In this document: positions 1 to 26,436 of the stretch, piece by piece | Position numbering within the stretch: the first letter of the stretch is position 1 | Layout of the letters: each line of letters begins with the position of its first letter | Origin: Streptomyces sp. NBC_01142 | GTDB lineage: Bacteria; Actinomycetota; Actinomycetes; Streptomycetales; Streptomycetaceae | Assembly: GCF_026341125.1 (NCBI RefSeq) | Contig: NZ_JAPEOR010000003.1 | Location: 1-64,000 of the forward strand | Length of the DNA: 64,000 nucleotides | Direction of reading: 5' to 3' | Position numbers and translations under genes: made by a program | Notes under the pieces: model-generated | What the model saw: only the letters and a program-made list of their open reading frames with translations | Database searches by the model: none | Told to the model about the DNA's origin: nothing

Positions 1-30
1 TGTCCACCTCGGTGTCGAGGCTGTCCGGCT

Positions 31-1280
31 TCATCGGGACTGCCCTTGGGAGTTCGGCCTGTCTACGCTCCCGGCAGTGGGGTGCAGGCGGTACGGGGAC
101 CGGGAGTTGATGTAGGCGGGGCCCTGGTAGGGCAAGGACACCAGGTCGACTCGCAGGGCCTCGCGCATGTGCGCGGTGTCGTGGTGGAACGGCCCGAACA
201 CCAGGGAGGTTCCGTACAACTGGTGCCCGTGGTCCATGAGATGAGTGAACGGATCTCCGAAGCGCGGCTGTTTGAGCTTCAGCCACTGCACCGACCGTTG
301 CGGGCGGAACTCATGCGTCGACAGCCGCTGGGCTACGTGTGCGGCGCCGGCCATCCGCAGCGGGTCAGCCCACAGCGGCGACAGCTCCGGCTCGCCCTGG
401 GGCCAGCCGGTATCGGTGTCGGTGAAATGGAGCACAGGCCGGAGTTCCGCCTGGGCCCTGGACAGCATGTCGGGGGCGAGGCGCTGGGCGGCGATGGCGG
501 TCAGCGAGGCGAACTCCGTCTCCCGGGCGGGACTCTTCCGGTGTTCCGTACAGCCAGCGCAGCAGCCGCTTCTGCCCCTCAAAGGCGTGTCTGTCGGCGA
601 GCGGGACCGTCGCGCCCTGGTCCAGGCGCCCACGGCACACGGTGGCATTGTCACCTTCCGGATGCGGGATGCGGGATGCGGCTGGTGAGCGAGGGGGCGG
701 AGGCTCGCCACCGCAGCCGGCACACGCGGCTGTCCCAGCCCCAGGACAGCCCGCTCTGTACTCGCTTGCACCGCGGGCAGCAGTTGCGCAGATACACCCG
801 GTGATCCAGGCAGACGAAGCTCCACGGCAGCTTCCACTCCAGCCGCCACTGTCCGTCCCGGGCGAGGCACTTGGGGCAGAAGTTGGAGTGGCGCCGAAGA
901 ACCCACGCTCCGACAACCCACGCGGTCAGGTCCCCTCGATGCTGAAAGGGTGGGGACGGGAGGTTGGGCAAGGCGGTGGCGGCGAACCGCGACAGCAGCA
1001 TGCCGCCGATCGTTTCAGCGGGTACGCCCGTCGCCGCGGAGAGTGTGTCCAGGGACGAGGGCGCAAGAGCCAGGCCCGCCGTCGTCGGGCGCATCTCCCC
1101 TCGGACCGCGAGCCCCAGACAGGCGAGGATGTCCGGCTGGTGGATCCCGTAGAGGAGACCGATCCGGTTGATCCAGCTGGGCAGTGACTCCCGTGCACCG
1201 GGCAGGGGAACAGCCGGCAGCCGACGCGGCACCCCGACCTGTGGGGCAGGCGGGCAGACGCCTGGATCCAGCATGAACAC
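31..1280 (-). pseudogene. tniQ: TniQ/TnsD-family transposon targeting protein, frameshifted
   Basis: TniQ-family proteins link a Tn7-like transposase to its target site. The amino-terminal part (1280 down to about 690) carries the usual opening (RLPAVPLPGARESLPSW) and the zinc-ribbon pattern CPKC, CLDH, CPRC. That frame stops at 651, but a second frame continues from about 700 down to the stop at 31 with TniQ-like carboxy-terminal sequence. The switch falls at three tandem copies of the 7-mer GATGCGG (661-681). Adding one copy, or removing two, would restore one frame. It lies directly downstream of the small XRE gene on the same strand. I read it as one broken gene, although a live amino-terminal fragment or a slippage-controlled gene cannot be excluded. 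Confidence 0.75.
661..681. repeat. 7-bp tandem triplication at the tniQ frameshift
   Basis: Three perfect head-to-tail copies of GATGCGG lie exactly where the tniQ reading frame is lost. Because 7 is not a multiple of 3, gain or loss of one unit by slipped-strand replication changes frame. Confidence 0.9.
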
Positions 1281-1286
1281 GGGCCG

Positions 1287-1541
1287 TTACTGGTGGTCCG
1301 CACCCATGTCCTGGAACAGCTCGGAGGGCGTCACGCCCAGGGCCTTTGCCAGGGCCGGGATGCGGTCGACGGAGATGCTGTGGACGGAGGCCTCGACCTC
1401 CGCGTAGAAGGACCGGTCCATCCCCGCAGCGGCCGCCACCGCGGTCTGGGTCATCCCCGCACGCGTACGCAGAGCCCGCAGACGCCGCCCGAAGACCAGC
1501 CGCTGAGCCGGGACGCCCGCACCGGAATCACTGTTCGCCAC
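1287..1541 (-). CDS. XRE-family transcriptional regulator of the transposon
   Basis: An 84-residue protein that is almost only a Cro/C1-type helix-turn-helix domain (about residues 15-78, containing TRAGMTQTAVAAAAGMDRSF then a second half ending in ALGVTPSELF). It reads away from the intact tniQ with 70 bp between them and is followed after a few bases by the broken tniQ on its own strand. A perfect palindrome (1569-1588) in the shared promoter is the likely operator, so I infer autoregulation and control of the tns operon. Small XRE repressors beside transposition genes are known in other Tn7-like elements; the link here is inference from position. Confidence 0.85.
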   Translation of the reverse strand: MANSDSGAGVPAQRLVFGRRLRALRTRAGMTQTAVAAAAGMDRSFYAEVEASVHSISVDRIPALAKALGVTPSELFQDMGADHQ

Positions 1542-1568
1542 AGACGGAACCGTAGTACGGTCCCACGA

Positions 1569-1588
1569 TTGTAGGAGATCTCCTACAA
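1569..1588. promoter_or_regulatory. Perfect 20-bp palindrome, probable XRE operator
   Basis: TTGTAGGAGATCTCCTACAA is fully self-complementary and sits in the 70-bp divergent promoter between xre and tniQ, just upstream of the tniQ ribosome binding site GGAGGAG (about 1600-1606). Size and symmetry fit a dimeric Cro/C1-type repressor. Confidence 0.7.
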
Positions 1589-1611
1589 GATCGAATCGGG
1601 AGGAGGAGCCG

Positions 1612-3402
1612 GTGGACCACCGAGGACTGCCGCGTCGGCTTCCGTCGGTACCGGTTCCCGTCGACGGTGAGTCGTTCCCGTCCTGGCTCAGCCGCGCGGC
1701 GGCCGACTGGCAGATCGCCCCGGGCCAGGCCGCGCAGGTGCTGGGCCTGGCATGCCACCCGAGCTACTCGGGGGTGAGGCCTTTGTGGTTCGGCACCGCG
1801 CTCACACAGCGAAGCCTTCAGGGCATCAGGGCGGCCACCGGCCTGGACGCGCCGGTGATTCAGGCGATGCAGCTGTCGCGGTATGCGGATACCGTGCTGG
1901 ACTTCACCGGGCCCGACCAGCCGGCACAGCAGGAGGAGAGCCTGGCCAGGCTCCGCAACCGCGAGTGGGCGCTGTTCACATCCAGCCGCGCGTGCCCGAA
2001 ATGCCTGGCCTCCGCTCCGGTGTGGCCGCTGTGGTGGCGTCTGGGCATGGCCGCCGTGTGCCCTGAGCATCGTGTCCTGCTGGTGGATACCTGCCGGCAG
2101 TGCGATGCGCGTCTCGGTTCCGGATACGCCGGCCACCCCCGCGGCTTGACCACCCGCCGCCAGATGCTCGACCTGGATCTTTGCAACAACCGGCGTTCTG
2201 CGAGCAGGAGGCGCAAGGCCGGGTTGTGCAGCCGGAGGCTGGCCACACACCCCACCGTGCCGGTCCCGGCCGAACTCGCCGACCTGCAGCAGCGCCTCCT
2301 TGATGTCGCCGACGGCGGCCCCGCGCAGGTGGCAGGCAGCGAGGTGACCGGGGCGGAGTTCTTCGCCGTGGTGCGGTTCACCGCGGCCGTGGTCCGGCTG
2401 GTCACCACCGCCGAGGAGATCAGCGCCTGCAGCGCGCTGCCCGGTGCGGCAGTCGAGGCGTTCACCGCCGACCTGCATCAGCGGCAGCTCGCCAGCCTGG
2501 GCGGCGGGCGCAGCCAGCTCCAGGCCAGCCCGCCCAGTGCCGCGCACGCCGCCGCTGTCCTCGCACTGAGCGCCCCGGTGCTCTTCGCCGAGGACCGCGC
2601 CGCCTGCCAGGGCGCCCTGGCGGCCTGGATGGACCGGGCCGTCGCGCTGCGCCGCAGGCCCGGCAAGAGCGATCCGCTGCGCCCGATACCGCGGCCTGCC
2701 GCTCTGGAGCCGTTGGTGCGCGCCGCTATCCGGCCCGCATCCCGCGTCGCTGGCGTGCTGGCCAGCCGCTCCCAGAGCCAGGCGCCGTTCACCGCCCACC
2801 ACGTGTGCCACCTCGCGGATCCGGGCGACTACCGCGAACTGATCGCCCGGCATCTGCCCGGCACCGCCGAGATCAGCGGCCGGCGCCTGGCCGCTATGGC
2901 GCTGGCCCGCCTCGCAGGCGCCACCAGCTGGCAGCGGGCCGCGGCCGCGCTGGCCATGGACCCCCTCAAAGCCGCCCGCGCAGCGAACACGCTGGTGCAG
3001 CGGATCGGCGACGCGGGCGCGTTCTGGCAGGACATCGAACGCCTCGGCGCCCGCCTCGTCGAGCACGGCCTGATCGACTATGCCGCCCGGCGCTGGGCCC
3101 TGTCCGGCCTGACTGAGGTTCCGCACCTGGTGCTGTTCGCGGTGTGCCACCCCCTGGGGTACGACGTCACCGAGCAGCGCCGCCGCCACGCCGCCGCCTG
3201 GATCTGGCAGCACTTCACCGGCGGAGACGTCCGCGACGCCCCCGCATACGCCCCCCACCTGTGGGCCCCGACCGGCATGACTTCCGTCCGCGAAGGCGCC
3301 AGGCGCTTCGCAGCCTGGCTCCCCGCATCCGTCGCCTGTGAACTCACCGCACACGGACAGGCGCTCCTCGACGGCGCCACCGAAGGAAAGCGAGGGGCAT
3401 GA
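1612..3402 (+). CDS. tniQ: TniQ/TnsD-family transposon targeting protein (intact copy)
   Basis: A 596-residue protein starting at GTG behind a GGAGGAG ribosome binding site. The first 165 residues match TniQ: an opening of the form RLPSVPVPVDGESFPSW, then zinc-ribbon pairs CPKC (128-131), CPEH (150-153) and CRQC (161-164). The long carboxy-terminal part is alanine and arginine rich with HTH-like segments, as in TnsD-type proteins, and probably reads target DNA. Its stop overlaps the tnsA start, so it heads a tniQ-tnsA-tnsB-tnsC operon, unlike Tn7 where tnsD follows tnsABC. It is a paralogue of the broken tniQ upstream, so the element once had two targeting proteins. Target site unknown. Confidence 0.88.
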   Translation: MDHRGLPRRLPSVPVPVDGESFPSWLSRAAADWQIAPGQAAQVLGLACHPSYSGVRPLWFGTALTQRSLQGIRAATGLDAPVIQAMQLSRYADTVLDFTGPDQPAQQEESLARLRNREWALFTSSRACPKCLASAPVWPLWWRLGMAAVCPEHRVLLVDTCRQCDARLGSGYAGHPRGLTTRRQMLDLDLCNNRRSASRRRKAGLCSRRLATHPTVPVPAELADLQQRLLDVADGGPAQVAGSEVTGAEFFAVVRFTAAVVRLVTTAEEISACSALPGAAVEAFTADLHQRQLASLGGGRSQLQASPPSAAHAAAVLALSAPVLFAEDRAACQGALAAWMDRAVALRRRPGKSDPLRPIPRPAALEPLVRAAIRPASRVAGVLASRSQSQAPFTAHHVCHLADPGDYRELIARHLPGTAEISGRRLAAMALARLAGATSWQRAAAALAMDPLKAARAANTLVQRIGDAGAFWQDIERLGARLVEHGLIDYAARRWALSGLTEVPHLVLFAVCHPLGYDVTEQRRRHAAAWIWQHFTGGDVRDAPAYAPHLWAPTGMTSVREGARRFAAWLPASVACELTAHGQALLDGATEGKRGA

Positions 3403-4166
3403 GTCCGAAACGACCCAACACACTGCGGCCCGTACGCAGCGCGGCCCACCCCCTGTACATCCACTACTACGACGCCGACTGCACCGAACGGCTCCTGCCC
3501 GCCGACCAGGCCCGCGAGGTGCGCTTCGAGACCTGCATGCCGGCCCGCGACTTTCCCACCTACGAAGGACAGGAACACACCCCCGGCTCCTACTGGGCGG
3601 CCAGCAGCGACACGGTCCTGGACTACGAGAGCTTCCTGGAAGCCCGCTGGATGAAGCTCCTCGACTTCGACGCGAAGATCGCCTGCTTCGCGGCCCAGCC
3701 CTTCATCTTCGAGGGCATCGACGCCGACGGCTCCTGGACCCACTACCCGGACCTGTTCGTCCGCCGCAGTGACGGCTCCGTGCTGCTGCTGGACGTCAAG
3801 AACCCCGAACAGCTCGACAAGTCCAAAGTCCAGCTCCAGGCCCGCCGTAGCGCCACCGCATGCCAACAACTCGGCTGGGACTACCAGATGGTCGGCGAAC
3901 CGGACGAGCAGCTGTGGGCCACCGTCGAATGGCTCGCCGGCTACCGCAGACCGCTGAACGCCGCCGCCCCCCTCGTGGACATCCTGCTCTTCCGCGCCCA
4001 GCACCCGGTCACCATCGCCGAGCTGCTCTCCATCTGGCCTGATCCGGATATCGAACGGGCCGTCACCTACCACCTCATGTGGCACGACCGCCTGCTGTTC
4101 GACCTCACCCGCCCGCTGCGCGACCACACCCAGGTGTGGGCCGCACCCGAACCGGAGCACACCTGA
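3399..4166 (+). CDS. tnsA: TnsA-like transposase endonuclease subunit
   Basis: A 255-residue PD-(D/E)XK nuclease. Visible catalytic residues are E81 (in SFLEARW), D118 (in HYPDLF) and D132-V-K134, spaced like E63, D114 and Q130-V-K132 of Tn7 TnsA. The carboxy-terminal quarter looks like the winged-helix part that contacts the transposase. In Tn7, TnsA cuts the 5' ends of the element while TnsB cuts the 3' ends, giving cut-and-paste movement; the conserved residues predict the same here. The start overlaps the tniQ stop by 4 bp and its TGA overlaps the tnsB ATG, so the genes are translationally coupled. Confidence 0.9.
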   Translation: MSPKRPNTLRPVRSAAHPLYIHYYDADCTERLLPADQAREVRFETCMPARDFPTYEGQEHTPGSYWAASSDTVLDYESFLEARWMKLLDFDAKIACFAAQPFIFEGIDADGSWTHYPDLFVRRSDGSVLLLDVKNPEQLDKSKVQLQARRSATACQQLGWDYQMVGEPDEQLWATVEWLAGYRRPLNAAAPLVDILLFRAQHPVTIAELLSIWPDPDIERAVTYHLMWHDRLLFDLTRPLRDHTQVWAAPEPEHT

Positions 4167-6301
4167 TGGACCAGCGCCACCGCATCGCCGTCGAAGACTG
4201 GATCGATTTCGAGGAAGAACAGCACCAGGTCACCGGCATCACCGGCGCCCTGGTCCGCCTGCGCTCGATCTCCGGACGCCACCAGACGATCATGCTCAGC
4301 ATCCTGCTGACCGACCCCACCTTCCGCACCCTGACCGCGCCGCCGGCCACCTCCGACAACGGCACCGCGGGCCTGGACCCCGGCGGCGTTCTGGCATCGC
4401 TGACGAACAAGCAGGCCCGCGACGACGCCCTGGAACTCGAAGCCCACCTGTACGAGGCCACCACCGGCTTCCGCTCCGGCTCCTCCTTCGACAAGGAGCC
4501 CGGCGAGCCCCGCCCCCAGTACCACCCCGACCTCCTGCTCTCCGAGCGAGTCGTGACCAAGGCGGCCGAGCTTGGACTGACCGAGCGCCGCATCTGGCAG
4601 CTGCTCGAGGAGTGGGAAGAGAAGGGCCTGTGGGCGCTGGTCGACGGCCGCAAAGCCCGGTTGAAGAACCCGCTGCGCAACATCGACGAGCGGGTGATCA
4701 CCGCGATCCGCGAGCAGGCCGCCGCCGAACAACGCGACAGTTCCTCCAGCGTCTCCACCCGCTTCCGGCGCCGCACCCAGAACCGGCTCGACGCGGACTA
4801 CGGCCCCGGGACCGTCGAACTGCCCAAGCCGGACACCTTCCGCCGGGTGGTCAAACTCCTCCTCCACCGTAGTCCCTCCGACCCCGCCTACCAGCGGATC
4901 TCGGACGCCAACCAGCCCGACCGCACCTTCGGCAACGTCATCGCCCACCGGCCCGGCCAGGTCGTCATGCTCGACACCACCCCGCTCGACGTCCTGGCCT
5001 ACGACCCCGCGATGAACGACACCTACAACGTCGAACTCACCGTCGCCATCGACGTCACCACCCGCTCCATCCTCGCCTGGCGCCTCACCCCGCTGGGCAC
5101 CAAGGCCATCGACATCGGCCTGCTGCTGGCGGACGTCATGACGCCCGAGCCGATGCGCCCCGAGTGGGCCGACGCCCTGCGCTACCAGATGCTGCGCGTC
5201 CCCTTCGAGCGTCACCTCAGCGTCGACGAACGCCTCGCCGAAGCCGCAGCGAGGCCCGTCGTCTACCCCGAGACCCTGCTCTACGACCACGGCAAGCCCT
5301 ACAAGTCCGACGTCGTCAAGCGCGCCTGCCGCAAATGGAGGATCGACCTGCAGGACGCCCGCAAGCTGAAGCCCACCGACAAACCCCACGTGGAACGCCT
5401 GTTCGGGACAATCCGGGAACAGTTCTCCATGCACATCGCCGGTTACAAGGGCTTCAACGTCGCCCACCGCGGCAAGCACGTCGAAGAACAGGCCCGCTGG
5501 ACCCTGGACGAGATCGCCGAGTTCTTCGCCGAGTACGTCATCGCGGTCTACCAGAACCAGCACCACCGAGGCCTGACCCTGCAGGGCTTTCCCGACCTGA
5601 ACGTCTCGCCCAACGAGGCGTACGCCATGGCGCTCGGAGCGGCCGGCTACGTCGACTGCCCCCGCGACCCCAAGATGTACTACGAACTGCTGCCCATCGC
5701 GGATGGCGGCCGCGCTATCAACTCCTACGGCGTCGAGCTCGACTACCTGGTCTACAACGAGGACGTCCTCTACAAGTTCCGCCGTGCCAAGTCCCCCTAC
5801 GACAACGGACGCTGGCCCATCCGCTACGACCCCCGCAACCTGCTGCACACCTACTTCCACAACCCCCGCAACGACACCTGGTACACGCTGCGCTGGACCA
5901 AGGCGCTCAGCGACCTGCAGCCCTTCACCGACATCACCCTGCGCGAGGCCAGGCGTCTGGTGGAACAGCGCGGCGGCGACCCGAAGGACAAGGACTTCCA
6001 GGAGCAGATCGCCAAGGCCCTGTGGGACCTGCAGAACCGCACCGACGCCCCCGAGATGTGGACCAAGACCGACCGCACGCGTCACACCCGCGACCGGCAC
6101 CGCGGTGAAGCCCAGGCCCAGGACGAAGCACGCTCCACCCCCGCGGTCCCCGCCACCGTCCCGCCGCCGGTGCCGGAAGTCGTCGAGCCGACCGTCCCCG
6201 CGCTCCACGCCGTCCCCGACTTGCCCGGCGAGGACGACTTCGACCCGTTCGCCGTCCAGCCCGCCGAGGTCTGGAACCCCCACACCAGTCAGGAAGGCTG
6301 A
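4166..6301 (+). CDS. tnsB: TnsB-like DDE transposase (Mu/integrase core)
   Basis: A 711-residue transposase from the ATG that overlaps the tnsA stop (TGATG). An amino-terminal HTH region (about 110-180) precedes the RNase H-like core with D270 (VVMLDTTP), D374 (LLYDHGKPY) and E410 (KPHVERLFGTI), a D-D-35-E arrangement. A Mu-type beta-barrel follows and the last 70 residues are acidic and proline rich, as expected for the tail that meets TnsC. It should bind the element ends, cut the 3' strands and join them to target DNA. Candidate binding sites are the repeats at 15276-15374. Reading frame is intact. Confidence 0.92.
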   Translation: MDQRHRIAVEDWIDFEEEQHQVTGITGALVRLRSISGRHQTIMLSILLTDPTFRTLTAPPATSDNGTAGLDPGGVLASLTNKQARDDALELEAHLYEATTGFRSGSSFDKEPGEPRPQYHPDLLLSERVVTKAAELGLTERRIWQLLEEWEEKGLWALVDGRKARLKNPLRNIDERVITAIREQAAAEQRDSSSSVSTRFRRRTQNRLDADYGPGTVELPKPDTFRRVVKLLLHRSPSDPAYQRISDANQPDRTFGNVIAHRPGQVVMLDTTPLDVLAYDPAMNDTYNVELTVAIDVTTRSILAWRLTPLGTKAIDIGLLLADVMTPEPMRPEWADALRYQMLRVPFERHLSVDERLAEAAARPVVYPETLLYDHGKPYKSDVVKRACRKWRIDLQDARKLKPTDKPHVERLFGTIREQFSMHIAGYKGFNVAHRGKHVEEQARWTLDEIAEFFAEYVIAVYQNQHHRGLTLQGFPDLNVSPNEAYAMALGAAGYVDCPRDPKMYYELLPIADGGRAINSYGVELDYLVYNEDVLYKFRRAKSPYDNGRWPIRYDPRNLLHTYFHNPRNDTWYTLRWTKALSDLQPFTDITLREARRLVEQRGGDPKDKDFQEQIAKALWDLQNRTDAPEMWTKTDRTRHTRDRHRGEAQAQDEARSTPAVPATVPPPVPEVVEPTVPALHAVPDLPGEDDFDPFAVQPAEVWNPHTSQEG

Positions 6302-6306
6302 CCGCA

Positions 6307-7497
6307 GTGCCCACCCCCTTCCCCTCCGACGACCTGCCCGAAGAGCCGTACGGGCCGGGCGACTTCAGGCACCCCGGCCTGTCCGAGCCGCGCACCAAGG
6401 AGGAATGGCGCGAATACCTCGACTACATCCTCCCCCTGCAGCCGGTCCTGCTGCCCCTCGCGGACTACGAGCAGCTTGACGCCGAGGAACGGCACCGGCA
6501 CAACATGGCCCGCTTCGCCCACCACAGTGCCCTGGTCATCGTCCGCACCAGCCAGATGAAGACCATCCACCACCAGATCCGCCGCCGGATGATGACCAAC
6601 GCCTTCCAGCCCGCCGGGGCACGGCGCAGCATCGTCCTCGACGGTCCCGCCACCCTCGGCAAATCCACCTTGGTCAAGACGTTCGCGTACGACTTCGAGC
6701 ACGAACTGCGGCGCAACCACCCCGAACGCTTCGAGAAGCGGTACATCGTCGACGGGCGGCTGATCGACTACACGCCCGTCGTCTACATCAACATCCCCTC
6801 CCAGGCCACCCCGAAGGACCTGTCGGTCGCACTGGCGCAGTACCTCGCCCAGCCCTACCGGTCCGGCGCCACCAAGAGCGACATCACCCGCCTCGTCCTG
6901 GACAACATGCGCCGCACGGGCGTCGAGCTCGTGATCATCGACGACGCGCACTTCATGGACCTCTCCCTCAAGGAGGGGAAGGTCGTCAACGACCACCTGA
7001 AGTTCATCGCAAACCACACCGCCGCCACCTTTATCTACACCGGTGTCGACCTGAAGTACTCGGGCCTCTTCCTCGAAGGCACCGGCGACGCGCGCGTCAC
7101 CCAGACCGCTGGCCGCAACACCCTGCTCCACATGACCCCCTACCGCATCGGGACCAGGGACGAGAAGGCCGACTGGGTCTCCGTCATCACCGCGATGGAA
7201 GACGCCCTCGTCCTGTACAAACACCGGCCCGGCACCCTCGTCGGCCAGTGGGAGTACCTGTACCGCCGCACCGGAGGCAACATCAGCTCTCTCGCGGAAC
7301 TCATCCGCGAAGCGGCAGCCGACGCGGTCCTGACCGGAGCCGAGCGCATCGACCGGAACCTCCTGGCCAGCATCACGATCAACGAGCACGCCCAGAGCAC
7401 CTACGAGACCGACTGGGGTCACACCGACCCCACCCCGCCACCTCCTGGCGACACCCAGAACCCCGACGAAGAAGACGGGCAAGCCGAAGCCAGCTAG
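6307..7497 (+). CDS. tnsC: TnsC/TniB-like AAA+ transposition regulator
   Basis: A 396-residue ATPase starting at GTG five bases after the tnsB stop. Walker A is GPATLGKS (113-120) and Walker B is VIIDDAH with acidic residues near 212-213; sensor-type motifs follow (FIYTGVDL). TnsC proteins form filaments on target DNA and connect TniQ with the TnsA-TnsB transposase. The TAG stop lies inside a CTAG (7494-7497) that is the target-site duplication of the downstream insertion sequences, so the insertion left the coding sequence intact but separated it from its terminator. Confidence 0.9.
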   Translation: MPTPFPSDDLPEEPYGPGDFRHPGLSEPRTKEEWREYLDYILPLQPVLLPLADYEQLDAEERHRHNMARFAHHSALVIVRTSQMKTIHHQIRRRMMTNAFQPAGARRSIVLDGPATLGKSTLVKTFAYDFEHELRRNHPERFEKRYIVDGRLIDYTPVVYINIPSQATPKDLSVALAQYLAQPYRSGATKSDITRLVLDNMRRTGVELVIIDDAHFMDLSLKEGKVVNDHLKFIANHTAATFIYTGVDLKYSGLFLEGTGDARVTQTAGRNTLLHMTPYRIGTRDEKADWVSVITAMEDALVLYKHRPGTLVGQWEYLYRRTGGNISSLAELIREAAADAVLTGAERIDRNLLASITINEHAQSTYETDWGHTDPTPPPPGDTQNPDEEDGQAEAS

Positions 7498-7569
7498 GGC
7501 CTGTATCTGGTTGTGATCAATCTGTGGGGACGCCTGCGTCCTGTGCCGCGATCTGGTAGATCGTCGTGC

Positions 7570-8064
7570 ATGACGCGGGCGCAACTCACCGACGAAGCAT
7601 GGGAGTTCATCGAGCCGTACTTGCCGATCGGCAGGTTTGGCCCGTATCCCGAGCGGCTGCGGCAGCAGTTCGAGGGCGTGATCTGGCGCTTCAAGACGGG
7701 CGGGCAGTGGCGGGAGATGCCGACCGAGTTCGGCGCCTGGTCCACCGTGCACAACCGCTTCAGGCAGTGGCGGGACGCCGGTGTCTTCGAGGCCCTGCTG
7801 GAGGGTCTGACAGCCGAGGCCGCCAAGCGCGGCGAGGTGGACTTGTCGCTGGTCAGCGTGGACTCCACCACTACCCGCGCCCACCACGACGCCGCCGGGG
7901 TGCAGCTCGACGAGGAGGTGCTCACCGCCCTGGAGAAGGCCGCCGAGGAGGAGAAGACCCAGTCAAAGGGGGCGATGAGCAAGGACAAGACGGGCGATCC
8001 GCCGACAGTGACCCCGCCCGGGAGGAGCGACGCCGCCTGCGAAGGCGACACCGACTCCGGCTGA
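7570..8064 (+). CDS. IS5-family transposase, first frame (OrfA)
   Basis: 164 residues from the ATG at 7570, with the amino-terminal IS5 domain (LTDEAWEFIEPYLP, GVIWRFKTGGQWREMP) and the first catalytic aspartate in VSVDSTTTRAHHDAAG. The rest of the catalytic core is in the minus-one frame. An in-frame slippery heptamer A-AAG-GGG (7965-7971) precedes the stop, so full-length transposase is probably made by programmed -1 frameshifting, as in several IS5-family (IS427 group) elements. Confidence 0.82.
   Translation: MTRAQLTDEAWEFIEPYLPIGRFGPYPERLRQQFEGVIWRFKTGGQWREMPTEFGAWSTVHNRFRQWRDAGVFEALLEGLTAEAAKRGEVDLSLVSVDSTTTRAHHDAAGVQLDEEVLTALEKAAEEEKTQSKGAMSKDKTGDPPTVTPPGRSDAACEGDTDSG
7965..7971 (+). 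promoter_or_regulatory. Candidate -1 ribosomal frameshift site in IS5 transposase
   Basis: A AAG GGG is an X-XXY-YYZ heptamer in the zero frame of OrfA, about 95 bases before the OrfA stop. Slipping back one base enters OrfB directly. Confidence 0.55.
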
Positions 8065-8543
8065 GGGCCGCTCTGCTCGGGCGCTCGCGCGGCGGACAGA
8101 CCAGCAAGGTCCACCTCGCTTCCGACCGCAAGTGCCGTCCGCTCGCGCTCATCCTGACCGCTGGACAGGCCGCCGACAGCCCGCAGTTCATCCCCGTCCT
8201 GAAGAAGGTAAGGGTCCGCGGACCCGTCGGTCGTCCCCGCACCCGGCGCGACGCGGTGGCCGGGGACAAGGCGTACTCGTCCCGCGGCAACCGCGCCTAC
8301 CTGCGAAGACGCCAGATCAAGGCGGTCATCCCGGAGAAGAAGGGCAGCCGGGGTGGTCGGCCCGTCGGCCACGACATCGACCTCTACAAGGAGAGGAACA
8401 CCGTCGAGCGCCTGATCAACAAGCTGAAAGCCTGGCGGGGCATCGCGACCCGCTACGACAAGAGGCCCGAAAGCTACCTCGCCGGCCTGCATCTTCGTGC
8501 CTCCATGATCTGGATCAAGGACCTCACGCGAACCACCCTCTGA
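7971..8543 (+). CDS. IS5-family transposase, second frame (OrfB, frameshift product)
   Basis: The minus-one frame continues the transposase: LLGRSRGGQTSKVHL, the second aspartate in VAGDKAYSSRGN and the glutamate in ERNTVERLINKLK. It has no convincing start of its own and is expected as a fusion with OrfA via the A-AAG-GGG slip at 7965-7971. Coordinates begin at the first codon after the slip. The frame is open from there to the TGA just inside the right inverted repeat. If the slip does not operate, this copy is inactive. Confidence 0.75.
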   Translation, partial: GDEQGQDGRSADSDPAREERRRLRRRHRLRLRAALLGRSRGGQTSKVHLASDRKCRPLALILTAGQAADSPQFIPVLKKVRVRGPVGRPRTRRDAVAGDKAYSSRGNRAYLRRRQIKAVIPEKKGSRGGRPVGHDIDLYKERNTVERLINKLKAWRGIATRYDKRPESYLAGLHLRASMIWIKDLTRTTL

Positions 8544-8566
8544 TCACAACCAGATACAGGCCCTAG

Positions 8567-9964
8567 TACTGCAACGGTGCTTGCCGTGACGGTTGGGCAG
8601 GTCGGTCGTTTATCAGGTCATGGGTGGGGAACTTGCTGATGCCCGGTCGTGGGCCGGTGAACTGAAGGCCTTGCACGAGCGGTTCGTGCACCGTTTCTCC
8701 AGGTCGGAGCCGCGGGAGTCGGCTCTCGCCTATATGCGGGGGCTGATAGCTCCGCTGGAGCGGAAGAACGGCTGGACGCTTGCCGAGGAGGCCGGGCATG
8801 GCGGCCCGGACCGGATCCACCGGCTGCTGAACCGGATCGACTGGAGCGCGGACGAAGTCCTGGACGACGTGCGGGACTACGTCGTCGAGCACCTCGGCGA
8901 TCCGGATGCGGTGCTGATCGTGGACGACACCGGGTTCCTGAAGAAGGGCATCCGCTCGGCCGGGGTCCAGCGCCAATACTCCGGAACCGCCGGCCGGACG
9001 GAGAACTCCCAGATCGGGGTCTTCCTCGCCTATGCCGGCGGACGCGGCCGCACATTGATCGACCGCCGCCTCTATCTGCCCACCTCATGGACCGATGACC
9101 GCGACCGGTGCCGGGCCGCGGGCATCGACGACACGGTCGCCTTCGAGACGAAAGTGGTGATGGCCAAGGCCATGGTCCGCCGGGCGATCACGGACCGGAT
9201 CCCGTTCCGGTGGGTGACCGCCGACGCCGCCTACGGCTTCTCCAAGGGCTGGCGTTCTGAGCTGGAGCGGGCGGATGTCTTCCACGTGATGGCCACCACC
9301 CGGCATGACACCGTCGTCACCCGCTGGGCCATGGACCACCCCGTTCACGATCTGTTTCCCGGGCTGTCCCGGCAGAAGTGGAAGCGCCGTTCCTGCGGCA
9401 ACGGCGCCCACGGCCCGAGGGTCTACGACTGGGCGAGGGTCGAGGTCCGTCCCTGGCACCGCGAGGACCGTCGTCACTGGGTGATCGCCCGCCGAAGTGT
9501 CCGCCGGCCCGAGGAGATCTCCTACTACATCGCCTACTGCCCGGCCGACACCACACTCGACGAGCTGATCCGCATCGCGGGCAGCCGGTGGGCGGTCGAG
9601 GAGTGCTTCCAGACCGCGAAGCAGGAGTGCGGCCTGGACGACTACCAGGTCCGCCGCTACGACGGCTGGCACCGCCACATCACCCTGGCCATGGCCGCAC
9701 ACGCCTGCCTCACCGTCCTGCGGGCCCGTGAACTCGACACCGGGAAAGCAGAAACGGATCCTCCCAGCTCATACCCCTGACCCTCCCCGAACTCAGACGC
9801 CTGATCACCCGCCTCACTCGACCCCGCCCAAGCACCGACCACGTCCTGCACTGGTCACACTGGCGCCGCAGACGACAACACCAAGCCCGCATCAGCCACT
9901 ACAAACGACGCGGCCACACACCACCAGAAGCCAACAAACCATCAGAGCAAAGACCGTTGCAGTA
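8567..9964 (+). mobile_element. IS701-family element
   Basis: A 1398-bp element with inverted ends TACTGCAACGGT at the left and its complement ACCGTTGCAGTA at the right (ending 9964), flanked by CTAG copies. The YTAR-type 4-bp duplication fits the IS701 family. The transposase reading frame is damaged near its end. Confidence 0.85.
8620..9780 (+). pseudogene. IS701-family DDE transposase, carboxy-terminal frameshift
   Basis: From the ATG at 8620 (a TTG at 8593 is an alternative) about 386 residues are read. Catalytic core features are present: LIVDDTGFLKKG, WVTADAAYG and the glutamate in WAVEECFQTAKQE. The frame stops at 9780, but the neighbouring frame from 9765 encodes the expected tail (QLIPLTLPELRRL, then VLHWSHWRRRR) and runs to a TAG at 9966-9968. 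One base appears lost near 9760, where GATCCTCCC would need one more base. The core could still act, but the family tail of about 65 residues is missing, so I call it a pseudogene with moderate certainty. Confidence 0.75.
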
Positions 9965-9980
9965 CTAGGGTGCGTTTCAG

Positions 9981-10010
9981 AAGTGGATCTTGATGTGTCA
10001 AGATCCACTT
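9981..10010 (+). promoter_or_regulatory. 13-bp hairpin abutting the IS5 transposase start
   Basis: AAGTGGATCTTGA (9981-9993) pairs perfectly with TCAAGATCCACTT (9998-10010) around a TGTG loop, one base before the ATG at 10012. In a read-through transcript it would hide the translation start, a known way for insertion sequences to block impinging transcription. It may also be a transposase site. Confidence 0.6.
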
Positions 10011-10011
10011 C

Positions 10012-10878
10012 ATGGGGCGGCACGATCTGACGAATGCGCAGTGGACGAAGCTGGAGCCCTTGCTCCCGGTCGGCAAGAAGCCTGGCCGGCCGCCGGTGCA
10101 CACCAAGCGGCAGTTGATAGACGGCATACGCTGGCGCACCCGCGCCGGTGCTCCCTGGCGGGACGTGCCCGAGCGGTACGGCCCGTGGGAAACGGTCTAC
10201 GGCCTGTTCCGGCGCTGGCAGCGGGATGGCACCTGGCACCGTATCTTCGAGCAACTGCAGGCTCAGGCCGACGCCGAAGGACTGATCACCTGGGACGTCT
10301 CGGTGGACTCGACCATCGCCCGCGCCCACCAGCATGCGGCTGGTGCTCGCAATCTGCAGATCGAGCCGCCGGGTGGTGTCTTCACCGAGCCCGAGGACCA
10401 CGGGCTCGGACGCTCCCGGGGCGGGCTGACCACCAAGCTCCACCTGGCGGTCGAGCAGGCCCAGAAACCGATGTCGCTGGTCATCACGGCCGGACATCGC
10501 GGCGACTCCCCGCAGTTCGAGGTGGTCCTGGGGCGTATCCGGGTGCCCAGGCTCGGGCCGGGCCGCCCGCGCACCCGGCCGGACAAGGTCCGCGCCGACA
10601 AGGCGTACGGGTCCCGCGCGAACCGCGCCTACCTGCGCAAGCGCGGTATCCGATGCACCATCCCGGAGAAGCGCGACCAGATCGCCAACCGCAAGAAACG
10701 CGGCTCCCAGGGTGGCCGGCCACCCACGTTCGACAAGGCCGACTACAAGGAGCGCCACGCGGTGGAATGCGGAATCAATCGCCTCAAACGCCACCGCGCG
10801 GTCGCCACGAGATACGACAAGCTCGCCGTCCGCTACGAAGCGACCGTGCCGATCGCAGCCATCAACGAGTGGCTGTGA
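10012..10878 (+). CDS. IS5-family transposase (intact)
   Basis: 288 residues in one frame. The IS5 amino-terminal domain ([31 protein letters not shown]) is followed by the DDE core: [44 protein letters not shown] and [16 protein letters not shown]. It ends just before the right inverted repeat. No Shine-Dalgarno sequence is visible; instead a perfect hairpin abuts the ATG, so expression is probably kept low. Of the three elements in the stack this is the only one with an uninterrupted transposase, and it could be the source of recent movement. Confidence 0.92.
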
Positions 10879-12177: not shown

Positions 12178-12356
12178 CTCACCTGTGAATTCCTCCGGCA
12201 TATTCGCTCTCTGGCCACGCTCGCTCGGATGCGCCACTTTCTGCCAGCTTGTGCCACCCTTCACCCGTACCGGCGGTGGTGCAGTTGCGTGCTGCCCTTC
12301 TAGGATGGGCAACTTCACTCCGATCGGGGCGGAATCGGTTAGGGGACGGGCCGTTG

Positions 12357-13181
12357 GTGGAGAGAAAGCATGTCGATTTGTCGGTGCCGAGTGCGGCGCG
12401 GATGTACGACTGGCTGCTGGGTGGCAGCAATAATTTCGAAGTAGACCGGGTTGCCTGCCAGTTATTGCTGGAGGTGGCGCCCACGTCGCGTGAGATCGCT
12501 CTGAACAACCGGTGGTTCCTTCAGCGTGTGGTCCGGGTGCTGGCCGAGGAGCACGGGATCAAGCAGTTCATCGACTTCGGTTCCGGCCTCCCGACCCAGC
12601 GGAACGTGCATCAGATCGCGCAGGAGGCCCACCGCGAGTCACGGGTCGTCTATATCGACACCGATCCGGTCGTCCTGGCGCTGGGCCAGTCTCTGCTGGA
12701 TGAGAACGACAACACCGCGCTACTGCCGGTCGACATGACGGACACCGACACTATCTTCGGTCACCCGGACTTCACGCGGCTCATCGACTTCACCCAGCCG
12801 GTGGCCGCCCTGTTCGTCTCCGTGCTGCACTGCCTGCCTGACAGTGCCGGTCCCAAGGCTCTGGTGGAGCGGGTGGCCGACAGGCTCGTCCCGGGCAGTT
12901 TCGTCGTTGTGTGTCAGCTGGTGAGCGACGACCCGAAGGTCCGCGACGAGGTCACCGAACTCATGCGGACCCAGACCGGGGGCAACTGGGGAAGGGTTCG
13001 CGAGAAGGCGGACGTGGAGGAGATCTTCGAGAAGCTCCTCGTAGAGGAGCCAGGTCTCGTCGATGTGACCGACTGGCGACCTGACTCCGAGATCCAGCAG
13101 CGCCAACGCAGCGTCGAGTGGACGGAGTTCGGCGGGCTGGGGAAGGTGCCGTCCGGGAGTAGGCCCGGGGGCGCCGGCTAG
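12357..13181 (+). CDS. SAM-dependent methyltransferase, SAV2177/DUF574 family
   Basis: 274 residues starting GTG at 12357 after a purine-rich run. Family hallmarks are the opening VPSAARMYDWLLGGSNNFEVDR, read in two parts (SAARMYDWLLGG, NNFEVDR), the SAM-binding loop FIDFGSGLPTQRN (about 75-87), and VVYIDTDPVVLALGQ. This family is expanded in Streptomyces and related genera; substrates are unknown. It converges on the XRE/DUF5753 gene with a 4-bp overlap of stop codons. Such methyltransferases often accompany DUF397/DUF5753 modules in these genomes, which fits the context. Confidence 0.88.
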   Translation: MERKHVDLSVPSAARMYDWLLGGSNNFEVDRVACQLLLEVAPTSREIALNNRWFLQRVVRVLAEEHGIKQFIDFGSGLPTQRNVHQIAQEAHRESRVVYIDTDPVVLALGQSLLDENDNTALLPVDMTDTDTIFGHPDFTRLIDFTQPVAALFVSVLHCLPDSAGPKALVERVADRLVPGSFVVVCQLVSDDPKVRDEVTELMRTQTGGNWGRVREKADVEEIFEKLLVEEPGLVDVTDWRPDSEIQQRQRSVEWTEFGGLGKVPSGSRPGGAG

Positions 13182-14149
13182 GAGTACCGCTTGACGGCTG
13201 CCTCCAGCATGCGCCGGCTGTCCGCCGGTGAAGCGCACGCCTCACCCTGGATGCGCAGGAGCAACTGAAGGTGCCGCTCGAACTCGTTGTCCTTGGTCGG
13301 CCACGGCTTCGTGCGTTCCTCGGCGCTCCGTGCGGGCTTGTTGTAGTAGTCGGCCTTGCCGTAGCCCTCGACGTAGACGAGGTCGGGCAGTCCGCCGCGG
13401 CCGAACTGGAGGTGGGCCATGCCGCCCGCCATCGATGCCTCGTTGCCCGCGATCATGCGGTCGAGGAGCACGAACCGGAGGGTGAGGTGAGGGAGGTCAG
13501 CTATCTCAAGCAAGTGGAGCATCTGCTCGAGCATCACCTCGTTGGGGCCGACCCGTCGGAGCAGGACGGACTCGTCCATCAGGAATACGCAGCGTGGCGG
13601 GTCGGCCTGGCCGAAAACCCGCTCTTGGCGCTCCCGGCGCAGAGCGACGCGCATTGCCATCTCCGGGCTGTCCCACTCGCTGATGTGCAAGCCGGTGCGG
13701 ATGATGCAGTTCGCGTACTCCGGTGTCTGCAACAGGCCCGACACCAGGCGCACGTCATATGTGGTGAGCACGATGGCCATGGACTCAAGGCCGAGGAGCC
13801 GGCGCAGGTACTCGGCTGTGAAGTCACCGAACCTGCTCTGAAACCACTCCGGCTCCTCGGCGCGGGAGAGCAGCATCGTCAGCTCGTCCCGCGCCGGGCT
13901 GTCGAGCTTCAGTTGATTCATCACCGCTTCGACCGTCCGCCGCTCGGGCGTGGTTTCCGCATTCTCCAGGCGGCTGATTGTTGAGTTCGAAACGAGGATC
14001 GCTTTCGCCAGGGCTGTCTGCGTGAGGCCGGCCTTATCACGCAAATCCTTGACGGCAAGTCCAAGCATGATGTGGGCCGCTGTCTTTGTTGCGTCTGGCC
14101 CGGCAGTGCGCCGGGCCAGACGGATGATCGGAATCGGATCCGGGGACAC
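13178..14149 (-). CDS. XRE regulator with DUF5753 (Scr1/WhiJ-like)
   Basis: 323 residues from a GTG preceded by GAAGGAGAAGG. A helix-turn-helix occupies about residues 32-85 (LRDKAGLTQTALAKAILVS, NSTISRLENAETTPERRTV); the DUF5753 ligand or partner domain fills the rest (EEPEWFQSRFGDF through MLEAAVKRYS). In Streptomyces such proteins pair with a small DUF397 protein, as WhiJ-like developmental regulators or the Scr1/Scr2 pair. Here the DUF397 gene lies 83 bp upstream on the same strand, so the two probably form one operon. Whether it works as antitoxin or as morphogenesis regulator cannot be told from sequence. Confidence 0.9.
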   Translation of the reverse strand: MSPDPIPIIRLARRTAGPDATKTAAHIMLGLAVKDLRDKAGLTQTALAKAILVSNSTISRLENAETTPERRTVEAVMNQLKLDSPARDELTMLLSRAEEPEWFQSRFGDFTAEYLRRLLGLESMAIVLTTYDVRLVSGLLQTPEYANCIIRTGLHISEWDSPEMAMRVALRRERQERVFGQADPPRCVFLMDESVLLRRVGPNEVMLEQMLHLLEIADLPHLTLRFVLLDRMIAGNEASMAGGMAHLQFGRGGLPDLVYVEGYGKADYYNKPARSAEERTKPWPTKDNEFERHLQLLLRIQGEACASPADSRRMLEAAVKRYS

Positions 14150-14232: not shown

Positions 14233-14472
14233 CTAGTTGAGGGTGCAGAGGGCGTCGAACTCGCCCTTCTTGGCGCCATCGATGAACGCTTCCATCTCCG
14301 CGCTGGAGACGATCAGCGCTGCCCCGGCGGGATCGGTCGAGTTACGGATCGCGATGCGGCCCTGGGGGAGCTCGGCGAGCTCGATGCACATGCCGTTCGC
14401 TTCGGACATGCGGCTCTTGACCCATTGCCCCGGGATGAGGTCAGCGGCCATACCGTTCGTGAAGTTCTGCAT
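14233..14472 (-). CDS. DUF397 domain protein (Scr2-like partner)
   Basis: 79 residues from ATG 14472. The DUF397 signature is present: WVKSRMSEANGMCIELAEL followed by IAIRNSTDPAGAALIVSSAE and a phenylalanine-containing end. It precedes the XRE/DUF5753 gene in the same direction. Members of this family act as the small partner of the XRE protein and have been described as the toxin-like half of Scr1/Scr2. The start was chosen because upstream codons in this frame lack conserved sequence. Confidence 0.9.
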   Translation of the reverse strand: MQNFTNGMAADLIPGQWVKSRMSEANGMCIELAELPQGRIAIRNSTDPAGAALIVSSAEMEAFIDGAKKGEFDALCTLN

Positions 14473-14829
14473 CGAAGAGGCACCCTCTCTGTTCGATAAT
14501 CCCATTTTTTCTACCTTCCTCCTCGCGGCCACGAGACTGCACAGGTGAAAGCCCCATGAAATCCCGTGATGCAATTTCATGGCCCGGCGTGGATGGAATG
14601 CTAGCGGCCCAAATTCGAACAAGGATGTCCCACGTACGGGTGGGTCGCTCAGCCCCGGAGGCCTCTCGTGGCCGCCAGGCAAGCGTGGTGCCACGGCGAC
14701 TTCCATGCGGAAGCAATGGCCTGCGTACCCGTCCGCGACCGCGCCCTGGAAGGCCACCTGCTCGCAAGCGCGGCAAGACCATCGGGGGCGCGGGCCTTAC
14801 CGAAGACCACATGCTCTCTGTGGCCTCCA

Positions 14830-14984: not shown

Positions 14985-15119
14985 CCTGCGGACCACTCCC
15001 TAGCGTTGCTCTTCCGGCGGGAGCTACCGGGACCCCTTGTGACGACAGCCCAGCGGCCACTCAGCGTAGGACTACGGAGAGTGGCCCCGGCGCGGGTTGC
15101 GCCCAGAGGGCGTGTAGCG

Positions 15120-15217
15120 CACTGAAATCATTCGTGCGTCGGGTGTGACTCAAGTCACCGCACAAATGATTTCAGCGCCCAGGTCAGAGACACGCCCACT
15201 GCAATCTTTTGTGCGTC
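15120..15217. repeat. Bulged palindrome plus direct copy, protein-binding or end-like repeats
   Basis: CTGAAATCATTCGTGCG (15122-15138) pairs with CGCACAAATGATTTCAG (15159-15175) at 16 of 17 positions, and inside it GTGACT (15145-15150) pairs with AGTCAC (15153-15158). A third copy, CTGCAATCTTTTGTGCG (15199-15215), lies in direct orientation. Such a cluster could be a regulator operator, a recombinase site or the ends of a lost element. Confidence 0.6.
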
Positions 15218-15275
15218 CCGACATCAAGGTAGGTGACGTACTCACGGGCTGCGTCACCCAAAGCGGACGCTAGAT

Positions 15276-15374
15276 GCAGATTCACTGAGACGTATCACCG
15301 CGACGTGCAGATTCGCTGAGACGAAGTTGATTTGGTGCAACTTAGATGAGATCCACGTCAGCTTCGTTGAGACA
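15276..15374. repeat. Four spaced direct repeats ending in ACA: candidate right end of the Tn7-like element
   Basis: Copies are TGCAGATTCACTGAGACG (15276-15293), TGCAGATTCGCTGAGACG (15306-15323), TGCAACTTAGATGAGATC (15336-15353) and GTCAGCTTCGTTGAGACA (15357-15374). The first three are exactly 30 bp apart, the last 21 bp on. The last copy ends in ACA, so the end read inward begins TGTCTCAACG, matching the TGT...ACA termini and multiple TnsB sites of Tn7-like transposons. The expected 5-bp duplication would be GGTCA (15375-15379); the other end must be left of the window. Confidence 0.55.
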
Positions 15375-15469
15375 GGTCAGTTGCTGGACCGATTGACGAT
15401 TGCCATGCGAACTATTCCGATATATCATTGACGTATCGCGACAGATCAACGATGGAAGGAGCGTAGCGA

Positions 15470-16083
15470 TGCGTTCACATGGACAAGGCCAGGATCACGA
15501 ACACGGCCGAGGGCATGGGCACTGCGGGCCCGGCCATCAGGGTCGGGGCGAGTACGAGGGGCGGCGCGGGGCCTTCGGTCCGTTCGGGCCGCCGTTCGGC
15601 GGGCCCTTCGGAGGCGGCCGCGGCCGTGGCGGCGGTCGGGGACGGGCGCGGCGCGGTGACGTGCGTGCCTCAATCCTGGCGCTGCTGAAGGACCGGTCGA
15701 TGCACGGTTACGAGATGATCCAGGAGATCGGCGAGCGCAGCGGCGGGGCCTGGCGGCCCAGCCCCGGCTCGGTCTATCCGACACTCCAGCTGCTCGAGGA
15801 CGAAGGTCTGATCACCAGCGCGAGCGACGGCGGCAAGAAGCTGTTCACGCTCACCGACGCGGGGCGCGCCGAGGCCGAATCGGGGCCGGAGGCTCCGTGG
15901 GAAGAGGCCGGCCGCGGTGTCGACTGGGAATCCGTCAATGAGGTCCGGCAGGCCGGGTTCGGTCTGATGGAGGCGTTCGGGCAGGTCTGGAAGACCGGCT
16001 CCGCCGAGCAGCGGCAGAAGGGCGTCGCCGTCATCAACGAAGCCCGTAAGAAGCTCTATCTGATCCTTGCCGACGAGCACTGA
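15470..16083 (+). CDS. PadR-family transcriptional regulator
   Basis: 204 residues from ATG 15470, behind GGAAGGAG. The first 60 residues are histidine and glycine rich (HGRGHGHCGPGHQG, then FGPFGPPFGGPFGGG), followed by the PadR winged helix (VRASILALLKDRSMHGYEMI, SPGSVYPTLQLLEDEGLI, KLFTLTDAGRA) and a carboxy-terminal coiled helix. PadR proteins repress efflux or detoxification genes in response to small ligands; the histidine-rich start suggests metal contact but this is inference. Upstream, inverted TATC-rich sequence (about 15419-15445) could be its own operator. A strong terminator follows. Confidence 0.9.
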
Positions 16084-25895: not shown

Positions 25896-26436
25896 CAGGC
25901 ATCGTTGTCATCGATGCCGGCACTCTGGCAAGCGAATTTCCGGGCGGCTGGGGAGAACCGAGTGGGACGCTGTGGGGCGGAACGGCCTGGCCTTCCGCGA
26001 CCCGCTGTCTTCCCGGGCTTCACGCTCATACGGGCAACGGCTGCCGCGTAGGACGGGGCCTGGTGGGCGAAGCGGTCCTCTCAGGCGCGCGAAGCTCGGC
26101 CGGTGCCGCCGGCCCCTCCGGCGTGCCGTGCTGATTCCAGCCCCGTGGCGATGGCACAGGGGGCCTCGCCGGGCACGTGCGGCGCGACTACGACGCCCAT
26201 CGCCCCATCCTTCGTCCGCCCGGGCCACAGATGCATCCCGCATGACGTGCATGTGCGGCACATGCGAAAGTGCCCCGAAGTCTCGCCTGGCACATGCGTG
26301 ATTCCGCTTGATCTCACAGTGCTGGTCCAGCGCGTGTGTGACGGGCGTTACCGTCCATGATCGGCCGAAGTCACATCGGCGTAACGGGCATTTCGTACCG
26401 TCGGGGGCACGATCCGATCCACAGAGAGGCCACCCG
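25896..26436. other. Long intergenic region between peptidase and nitrate reductase
   Basis: 540 bp without a gene I can support. It has two GGCACATGCG words near 26255 and 26290, several small inverted repeats and, close to the nitrate reductase start, a GlnR-like site (26370-26385). It probably holds both divergent promoters. Confidence 0.55.
26370..26396 (+). promoter_or_regulatory. GlnR-like binding site upstream of nitrate reductase
   Basis: GTCAC-n6-GTAAC (26370-26374, 26381-26385) followed by n6-TTCGT resembles the actinobacterial GlnR pattern GTNAC-n6-GAAAC. It lies about 50 bp before the GTG start. Control of nitrate assimilation genes by GlnR is known in Streptomyces; the site itself is inferred. 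Confidence 0.5.

Follow-up and report, generated by a model that had tools for sequence, protein, structure and literature searches.

A Tn7-like transposon of Streptomyces with four TniQ genes, inserted in cpaF and at a second, unrelated site of the same genome

In canonical Tn7, tnsA comes first and tnsD follows tnsC, and the TnsABC+TnsD pathway leads to a site downstream of glmS. Among Tn7-like elements, an Actinobacteria-dominated clade (clade 2) was reported in 2021 without an experimentally characterised member, and complete pathways are few among the cargo reported there (Benler et al. 2021, PMC8649781). Fifty loci with more than two TniQ/TnsD are described in the cited part of Faure et al. 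2023 (PMC10293859), where loci with several TniQs are put down to co-occurring Tn7s or split genes; there, too, Tn6022 and Tsy are described as inserting into comM with the selector TnsF, together with TniQ in Tn6022. Here we describe an element that overlaps the left edge of a 64,000-nucleotide stretch of Streptomyces sp. NBC_01142 (the window: positions 1-64,000 of contig NZ_JAPEOR010000003.1, assembly GCF_026341125.1; contig C3 of genome G000 below). An earlier note on this DNA had proposed a Tn7-like module with two TniQ genes at 31-7497. Judged from the sequence, these genes are the engine of a complete Tn7-like transposon far larger than that interval.

The element resembles Tn7 in having TnsA, TnsB, TnsC and a TniQ-domain selector, in its TGT...ACA ends with repeat arrays, in its 5-bp duplication and in its site- and orientation-specific insertion. 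It differs in that tniQ precedes tnsABC, the operon points towards the nearest end, several TniQs are present, and the site lies inside a coding gene, cpaF, whereas that of Tn7 lies downstream of glmS. Its features place it in a known kind, the actinobacterial Tn7-like elements reported in 2021 without a characterised member; the likeness to clade 2, as described in the sections cited, is one of host phylum. Like the loci listed by Faure et al., it has more than one TniQ at one locus, but here three open and one broken TniQ stand between one pair of ends, and a relative (G169) has four, all of them open. Tn6022 and Tsy, as cited above, likewise insert inside a conserved gene, although their target is comM. 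The word cpaF is absent from the main text of Benler et al. (PMC8649781), and among the titles and abstracts listed we found no published report of cpaF as an insertion site of such elements. Pfam gave no hit for TnsD, and TnsE was not found among the proteins scanned. A CRISPR-associated transposon was considered and rejected because the element contains no array-like repeats and the proteins scanned, a part of the open reading frames (ORFs), include no cas product; the earlier note had likewise seen no cas genes.

The limits of the element were obtained by joining contigs. The first 15,379 bases of the window are the end of reversed contig C10, whose other end overlaps C11; negative coordinates denote sequence left of the window taken from these joins. 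The element measures 42,139 bp, with its left end at -26915, 26.9 kb outside the window, and its right end at 15223. Its termini, TGTCGG and CCGACA, are flanked on both sides by the 5-bp duplication TCAAG. Matches to ACTGAAATCTTTCGTG (up to 4 mismatches) occur three times at the right end (Table 1) and four times, two of them overlapping, at the left end; one extra match lies outside the element, far left at -48030. Ends of this type with repeat arrays, as expected of a Tn7-like transposon, are also present in the delimited relatives.

ORFs, Pfam and NCBIfam models bore out the order tniQ-tnsA-tnsB-tnsC on the + strand, with a divergent XRE gene and a further TniQ on the - strand. The signatures claimed earlier were located as stated: E81, D118, D132 and K134 of TnsA (E, D, D-x-K of a predicted nuclease), D270, D374 and E410 of TnsB when numbered from the ATG at 4166, and, in TnsC, Walker A (GPATLGKS) at 113 and a Walker B-like LVIIDDA at 208. 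In the profile searches TniQ, TnsA and TnsC scored above the cut-off, and the rve match of TnsB stayed under it (21.4 of 32.6 bits). TnsB matches PDB sequences of Tn6677 and other TnsB chains; TnsA had no match among PDB sequences at E 1. The genes move as a unit, as had been suspected, with ends and duplications recognisable in this genome and in relatives, and TnsA adjoins TnsB in 18 of the 18 relatives examined; neither finding refutes the proposal of the earlier note. Their order is also kept, with exceptions in L012 (contig beginning before tnsA, no tniQ there), G197, G350 and G371 (tniQ fragmented) and L015 (tniQ in two frames, tnsB truncated). L008 has the XRE-tniQ-A-tnsA start in tandem at 4735-9237, the first copy being truncated within tnsA. 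All 141 plasmid records with TnsB relatives are less than 60% identical.

The genome contains the element at two places. In a cpaF search this gene proved to be split between two contigs, one part lying close to the end of C2 and the other close to the beginning of C1. C2 ends with the first 10,478 bp of the element and C1 begins with the last 7,702 bp, each stretch 100% identical to the window copy, and this cpaF/tadA insertion is flanked by the duplication TGCGG. The two insertions are thus identical across the comparable 18,180 bp. The window copy is flanked by another Tn7-like element, about 150 bp inside the right end of which it is inserted. This host element has its own tnsABC (C11 26091-29859; TnsB 32-33% identical); a stretch of 5,862 bp from it is present in two identical copies (C2 1-5862), of which one hosts the window element. 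No clear duplication was found at its termini, TGACCTGTCTC...GAGACAGGTCA. That both copies are one element split by overlapping contigs could be argued from the 100% identity of the overlaps, most of which stop where a contig stops, but the two left and two right flanks differ and are paired by cpaF continuity and by the duplications TGCGG and TCAAG, and we regard such an assembly artefact as highly improbable. A terminal repeat of a linear replicon as source of the double copy was rejected because the four flanks differ. Since an element identical where compared stands between two different sets of flanks, one element has, on this evidence, used two unrelated target sites in one genome. Two further TnsB homologues are found in this genome, at G000:C3:1582195 (35%) and C7:15645 (31%).

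The insertion sites of relatives were compared in a sample of 392 Streptomyces genomes, own included (G and L numbers denote genomes and loci). TnsB relatives at least 84% identical occur in 4 of the 391 other genomes, all four in cpaF. Nine insertions were mapped in the family, L009 and L012 set aside. Seven interrupt cpaF, always at the codons GHEGG^CGTVHANA and in a single orientation, the left end of the element coming after the 5' part of cpaF in every case. In G066 and G381 the cpaF frame is continuous once the element is removed, and the break falls at LNTGHEGG^CGTVHANA, within a few bases; the junctions of G169, G276, L008/G392 and L010/G394 lie in the same codons. Among 15 family-bearing genomes (those other than the genome of L012, G013, G323, G325 and G371), an interrupted cpaF is found in seven (own, G066, G381, G169, G276, G392, G394) and an intact one in eight (G244, G350, G197, G393, G395-G398). 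An exact 5-bp duplication flanks seven of the nine mapped insertions: five in cpaF (own, G066, G381, G276, L008) and the two outside it, namely the window copy and L015, which lies in a dehydrogenase-like gene (named by eye). The site comparison proposed in the earlier note therefore yields a preference for cpaF, with some members elsewhere.

An end search on 18 relatives delimited three elements exactly, in G066 (27,287 bp, GGTGC), G381 (25,249 bp, GCGGC) and L015 (9,981 bp, CGCGC); the rest gave weak, chance-like pairs, probably because the stretches are cut or the ends differ. When four relatives and a portion of a fifth were searched with the element by BLAST, 77-103 bp of the left end proved common, and about 100 bp of the right end common to two relatives. 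The core from TniQ-C to TnsC is also common and the cargo is mostly different; G276 matches the Lamassu region at 67-73%, and G066 matches TniQ-D at 65%.

The earlier note had counted two TniQ proteins, and suggested two target pathways of which one is lost. Four TniQ genes were found between one pair of ends: A, C and D are open, and B is spread over two frames (651-1280 and 31-921). TniQ-B is the second TniQ of that note; it does stand beside the XRE gene on the - strand with a TniQ domain, but it is broken. TniQ-C and TniQ-D both lie left of the window, apart from the part of the longest TniQ-C ORF that reaches position 286. The TniQ-C domain begins at about residue 127 of the longest ORF and so falls outside the window; the true start is thus probably just left of the window. 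Because the element has four TniQs and the broken one is the second of the earlier note, the idea of two pathways with one lost was only partly right: two unrelated sites are used, and two other TniQs are open. A tree of 42 TniQ-domain stretches, the phylogeny called for earlier, falls into classes A (operonic, about 590 aa), B, C and D, with long branches that leave its deep joins unsure. At least 71 proteins, own included, were recovered with TniQ-A among 8,000 candidates, from Streptomyces, Kitasatospora, Nocardia and Saccharothrix, among others. The 53 relatives aligned share 35 invariant columns, of which nine lie past residue 400, and all match Pfam TniQ, with no Pfam hit for TnsD; against PDB, their profile gave a weak TniQ match (E 0.049) in the zinc-finger region.

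TniQ-A probably selects cpaF, because it is the only class present in all seven cpaF elements. TniQ-C is known in five of them (own, G066, G381, G169, G276) and TniQ-D in four (own, G066, G169, G394), counts in which the elements of G276, L008 and L010 were seen in part. These distributions could also be taken to mean that TniQ-A is a general adaptor and that a short TniQ, C or D, alone or paired, recognises cpaF; class A occurs in elements outside cpaF as well, and the cited part of Faure et al. (PMC10293859) reports short TniQs working with partner selectors. We find this unlikely: no short class is known in all seven elements, as A is, D was not found in G381, and the parts of L010/G394 that were read showed no C, the G276, L008 and L010 elements having been seen in part. 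Because relatives with TniQ-A also sit elsewhere, we infer its link to cpaF rather than observe it, and any assignment of a given TniQ to a given target site is provisional.

Taken together, the most likely explanation, in our opinion, is a cut-and-paste Tn7-like transposon of 42,139 bp in which TniQ-A directs insertion into cpaF, the short TniQs serve further targets and the XRE protein exerts control. By analogy to Tn7, TnsB would bind the repeats at both ends, TnsA and TnsB would excise the element, TnsC would link it to target-bound TniQ, and insertion would leave the 5-bp duplication. TniQ-A, TnsD-sized and at the head of the operon, most likely reads the conserved cpaF/tadA coding segment, placing the element in one orientation at the codons that follow GHEGG. 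Further targets are probably provided by the short TniQs C and D, B being broken here. The element appears to have moved recently and may still be mobile; as evidence of activity, the two identical insertions are indirect. That it is an immobile relic whose transposase module is used for another purpose would fit the insertion sequence (IS) genes inside it and the broken TniQ-B, yet tnsA, tnsB and tnsC are open with their catalytic residues and the two insertions are identical where compared, so we give this reading very little credence.

Several observations weigh against this explanation. The window copy is itself outside cpaF; both insertions span contig breaks, and their comparison leaves out the inner 24 kb. 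The G169 duplication matches in 4 of 5 bases, L010/G394 is without a duplication, and the left terminus of L008 reads TATCGG. Class-A TniQs (47-50% identical) are found in L009, L011, L013, L014 and G244 with cpaF whole, and that of L015, in two frames, belongs to the element in the dehydrogenase-like gene. The TniQ-A of L010, an element in cpaF, groups (92/96) with TniQs from outside cpaF and not with those of the other cpaF elements, and a TniQ-D lies just inside the left end of the L010 element.

The second site in this genome bears on the role of the short TniQs. Compared with the cpaF site it scored 10, a value matched in 58.6% of 500 shuffles and so nothing beyond chance; the positive control, the G066 cpaF site, scored 95. 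The L015 site scored 16 against cpaF; 4% of shuffles did as well, and we rest nothing on this weak likeness of GC-rich stretches. Insertion into the other Tn7-like element may then have been untargeted or relaxed, with no second pathway and with the extra TniQs as decaying passengers. This is quite conceivable, though less likely than not: TniQ-B is broken and a single insertion of that kind was seen, but the frames of the C and D proteins compared are open and their CxxC...CxxH...CxxC motif is preserved, as it is in all 13 TniQs compared, and G169 has four open TniQ frames within one element's ends. A more far-reaching proposal is that the element carries a toolkit of paralogous TniQs, A for cpaF and short ones for other sites, mobile elements included, under one XRE switch, spreading a biosynthetic cluster and a defence locus; we advance it tentatively.

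XRE adjoins tniQ-A in nine of nine loci, namely L009, L010 and seven from the close group; no XRE match was found in L011-L014, G244, G350, G197, G013 or G325, and G371 has a 32% match beside another TniQ. The length of the palindrome between the two genes was reached in none of 10,000 base shuffles. The corresponding gap holds a palindrome of 22 bp in G276, 24 bp in G169 and, with letters changed, 32 bp in L009; that ahead of the extra tniQ-A of L008 is 42 bp long. Near-palindromes occur in the gaps of G066, G381 and L010 and in the main gap of L008, and L015 has one half only. The exact 18-mer is present in 6 of 108 loci, at four distinct places. This conserved palindrome before tniQ-A is probably the XRE operator, through which XRE, acting in the divergent promoter, would repress tniQ-A-tnsABC.

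The cargo left of the module comprises EamA transporters, an FAD oxidoreductase, a thioesterase, an asparagine-synthase-type enzyme, an adenylation-carrier protein, an FAA hydrolase, an HMGL-type enzyme, an SDR, an acyl carrier protein, a phosphopantetheinyl transferase and a 505-aa protein without family. Together these genes look like an NRPS-like biosynthetic cluster. At E 1e-60, 12 of the 391 other genomes hold relatives of the 505-aa protein, the one in G272 being 87% identical; G272 has parts of the cluster, and no such ends within the 60 kb read. The adenylation protein had one distant match on plasmids. Lamassu genes LmuA and LmuB lie on C10 (-7914..-3106), and an IS4-type gene separates LmuB into two pieces. 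Where Pfam gave no hit, genes were called with a simple script based on codon position. Three IS genes (IS5, IS701, IS5) are stacked 3' of tnsC at 7513-10878, where G169 and G276 carry another TniQ. Beyond the element, window 26308-30525 encodes a large protein with molybdopterin oxidoreductase, flavodoxin, FAD and NAD domains.

A group with 65-67% identical TnsB inserts at another place, between genes, where the automatic duplication search gave weak, chance-like pairs and inspection by eye no clean 5-bp duplication. In G244 and G197 a gene for a thiamine-pyrophosphate-type enzyme (named by eye) terminates next to the left end; on the right, a short gene MQRGSDRLSVHRDD follows in G244, G350, G197, L011 and L013 (by eye); neither was found in the L014 stretch. 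In L011 and L013, at about 15090-16070, a right and a left end look fused, followed by an EF-Tu-like gene (by eye), an arrangement that may represent elements in tandem at a single site.

Of the 392 genomes, 13 contain the left-end pattern (up to 3 mismatches), and the reversed control gave none. Its matches include right-end-like ones, two solo left ends and a mini-element; those in G119, G295, G067, G011 and G283 are known from the pattern alone. The 2.3-kb mini-element (L141, G267:C1:8656097-8658387) has like ends and the duplication GGCCA (by eye); no tns genes were found in it, and it may be mobilised in trans. Around the solo left ends, G223:C6:21643 and G290:C1:4690486, no tns or TniQ match was found within 40 kb each. 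An inverted end-like pair about 3.7 kb apart, without matching duplication, lies at G000:C3:1537336 and 1541011 (L140).

Table 1. Features of the element and its right flank in window coordinates.
Feature	Position	Strand	Evidence
TniQ-C, 5' part of longest ORF (-1219..286)	1..286	-	PF06527, 55.1 bits
TniQ-B, frameshifted; N-terminal frame 651-1280	31..1280	-	TniQ domain, 81.1 bits
XRE/HTH_3 regulator, 84 aa, divergent from tniQ-A	1287..1541	-	HTH_31/HTH_3 (Pfam)
20-bp perfect palindrome TTGTAGGAGATCTCCTACAA between XRE and tniQ-A, predicted XRE operator (probable)	1569..1588	.	shuffle test
TniQ-A, 596 aa, operonic; probable cpaF target selector (predicted)	1612..3402	+	PF06527, 69.8 bits, cut-off 27
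TnsA-like endonuclease subunit	3399..4166	+	NF033179 TnsA_like_Actin, 190.3 bits, cut-off 110
TnsB DDE transposase, from ATG at 4166	4166..6301	+	residues, PDB sequence matches
TnsC/TniB AAA+ ATPase	6307..7497	+	PF05621 TniB, 52.2 bits; PDB matches to TnsC
IS5-family transposase over two frames	7513..8543	+	ORFs, Pfam, NCBIfam
IS701-family transposase	8593..9780	+	NCBIfam
IS5-family transposase	10012..10878	+	NCBIfam
Cargo S-adenosyl methyltransferase (Methyltransf_19)	12249..13181	+	domain scan
Cargo HTH-DUF5753 regulator	13178..14149	-	domain scan
Cargo DUF397 protein	14233..14757	-	domain scan
Right-end repeat 1, predicted TnsB site (probable)	15121..15136	+	repeat search
Right-end repeat 2	15161..15176	-	repeat search
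Right-end repeat 3	15198..15213	+	repeat search
Right terminus CCGACA (left counterpart TGTCGG at -26915)	15218..15223	+	repeat/duplication search
Target-site duplication TCAAG (second copy -26920..-26916)	15224..15228	.	duplication search
Right end of other Tn7-like element, host of window copy; outer limit approximate	15229..15382	.	end search

The cpaF insertion may parallel that of the comM-targeting elements. As the CpaF/TadA1 protein of Micrococcus luteus is reported, in the part of PMC8467076 cited, to be essential for transformation, loss of cpaF may, speculatively, help the element to persist. If the proposal of a TniQ toolkit is true, insertion into cpaF would also disable the Tad pilus ATPase, of the kind needed for DNA uptake in M. 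luteus, and a biosynthetic cluster and a phage-defence locus would be spread between streptomycetes. Independently of that proposal, an apparent natural-product gene cluster is here the cargo of a Tn7-like element. The element is a natural case of two unrelated targets used in one genome, which makes the question whether several TniQs mean several targets directly testable, and its ends and candidate selector are supplied for a protein-guided integration tool in Streptomyces. With it, the actinobacterial Tn7-like group gains a complete anatomy and an attachment site at codon resolution.

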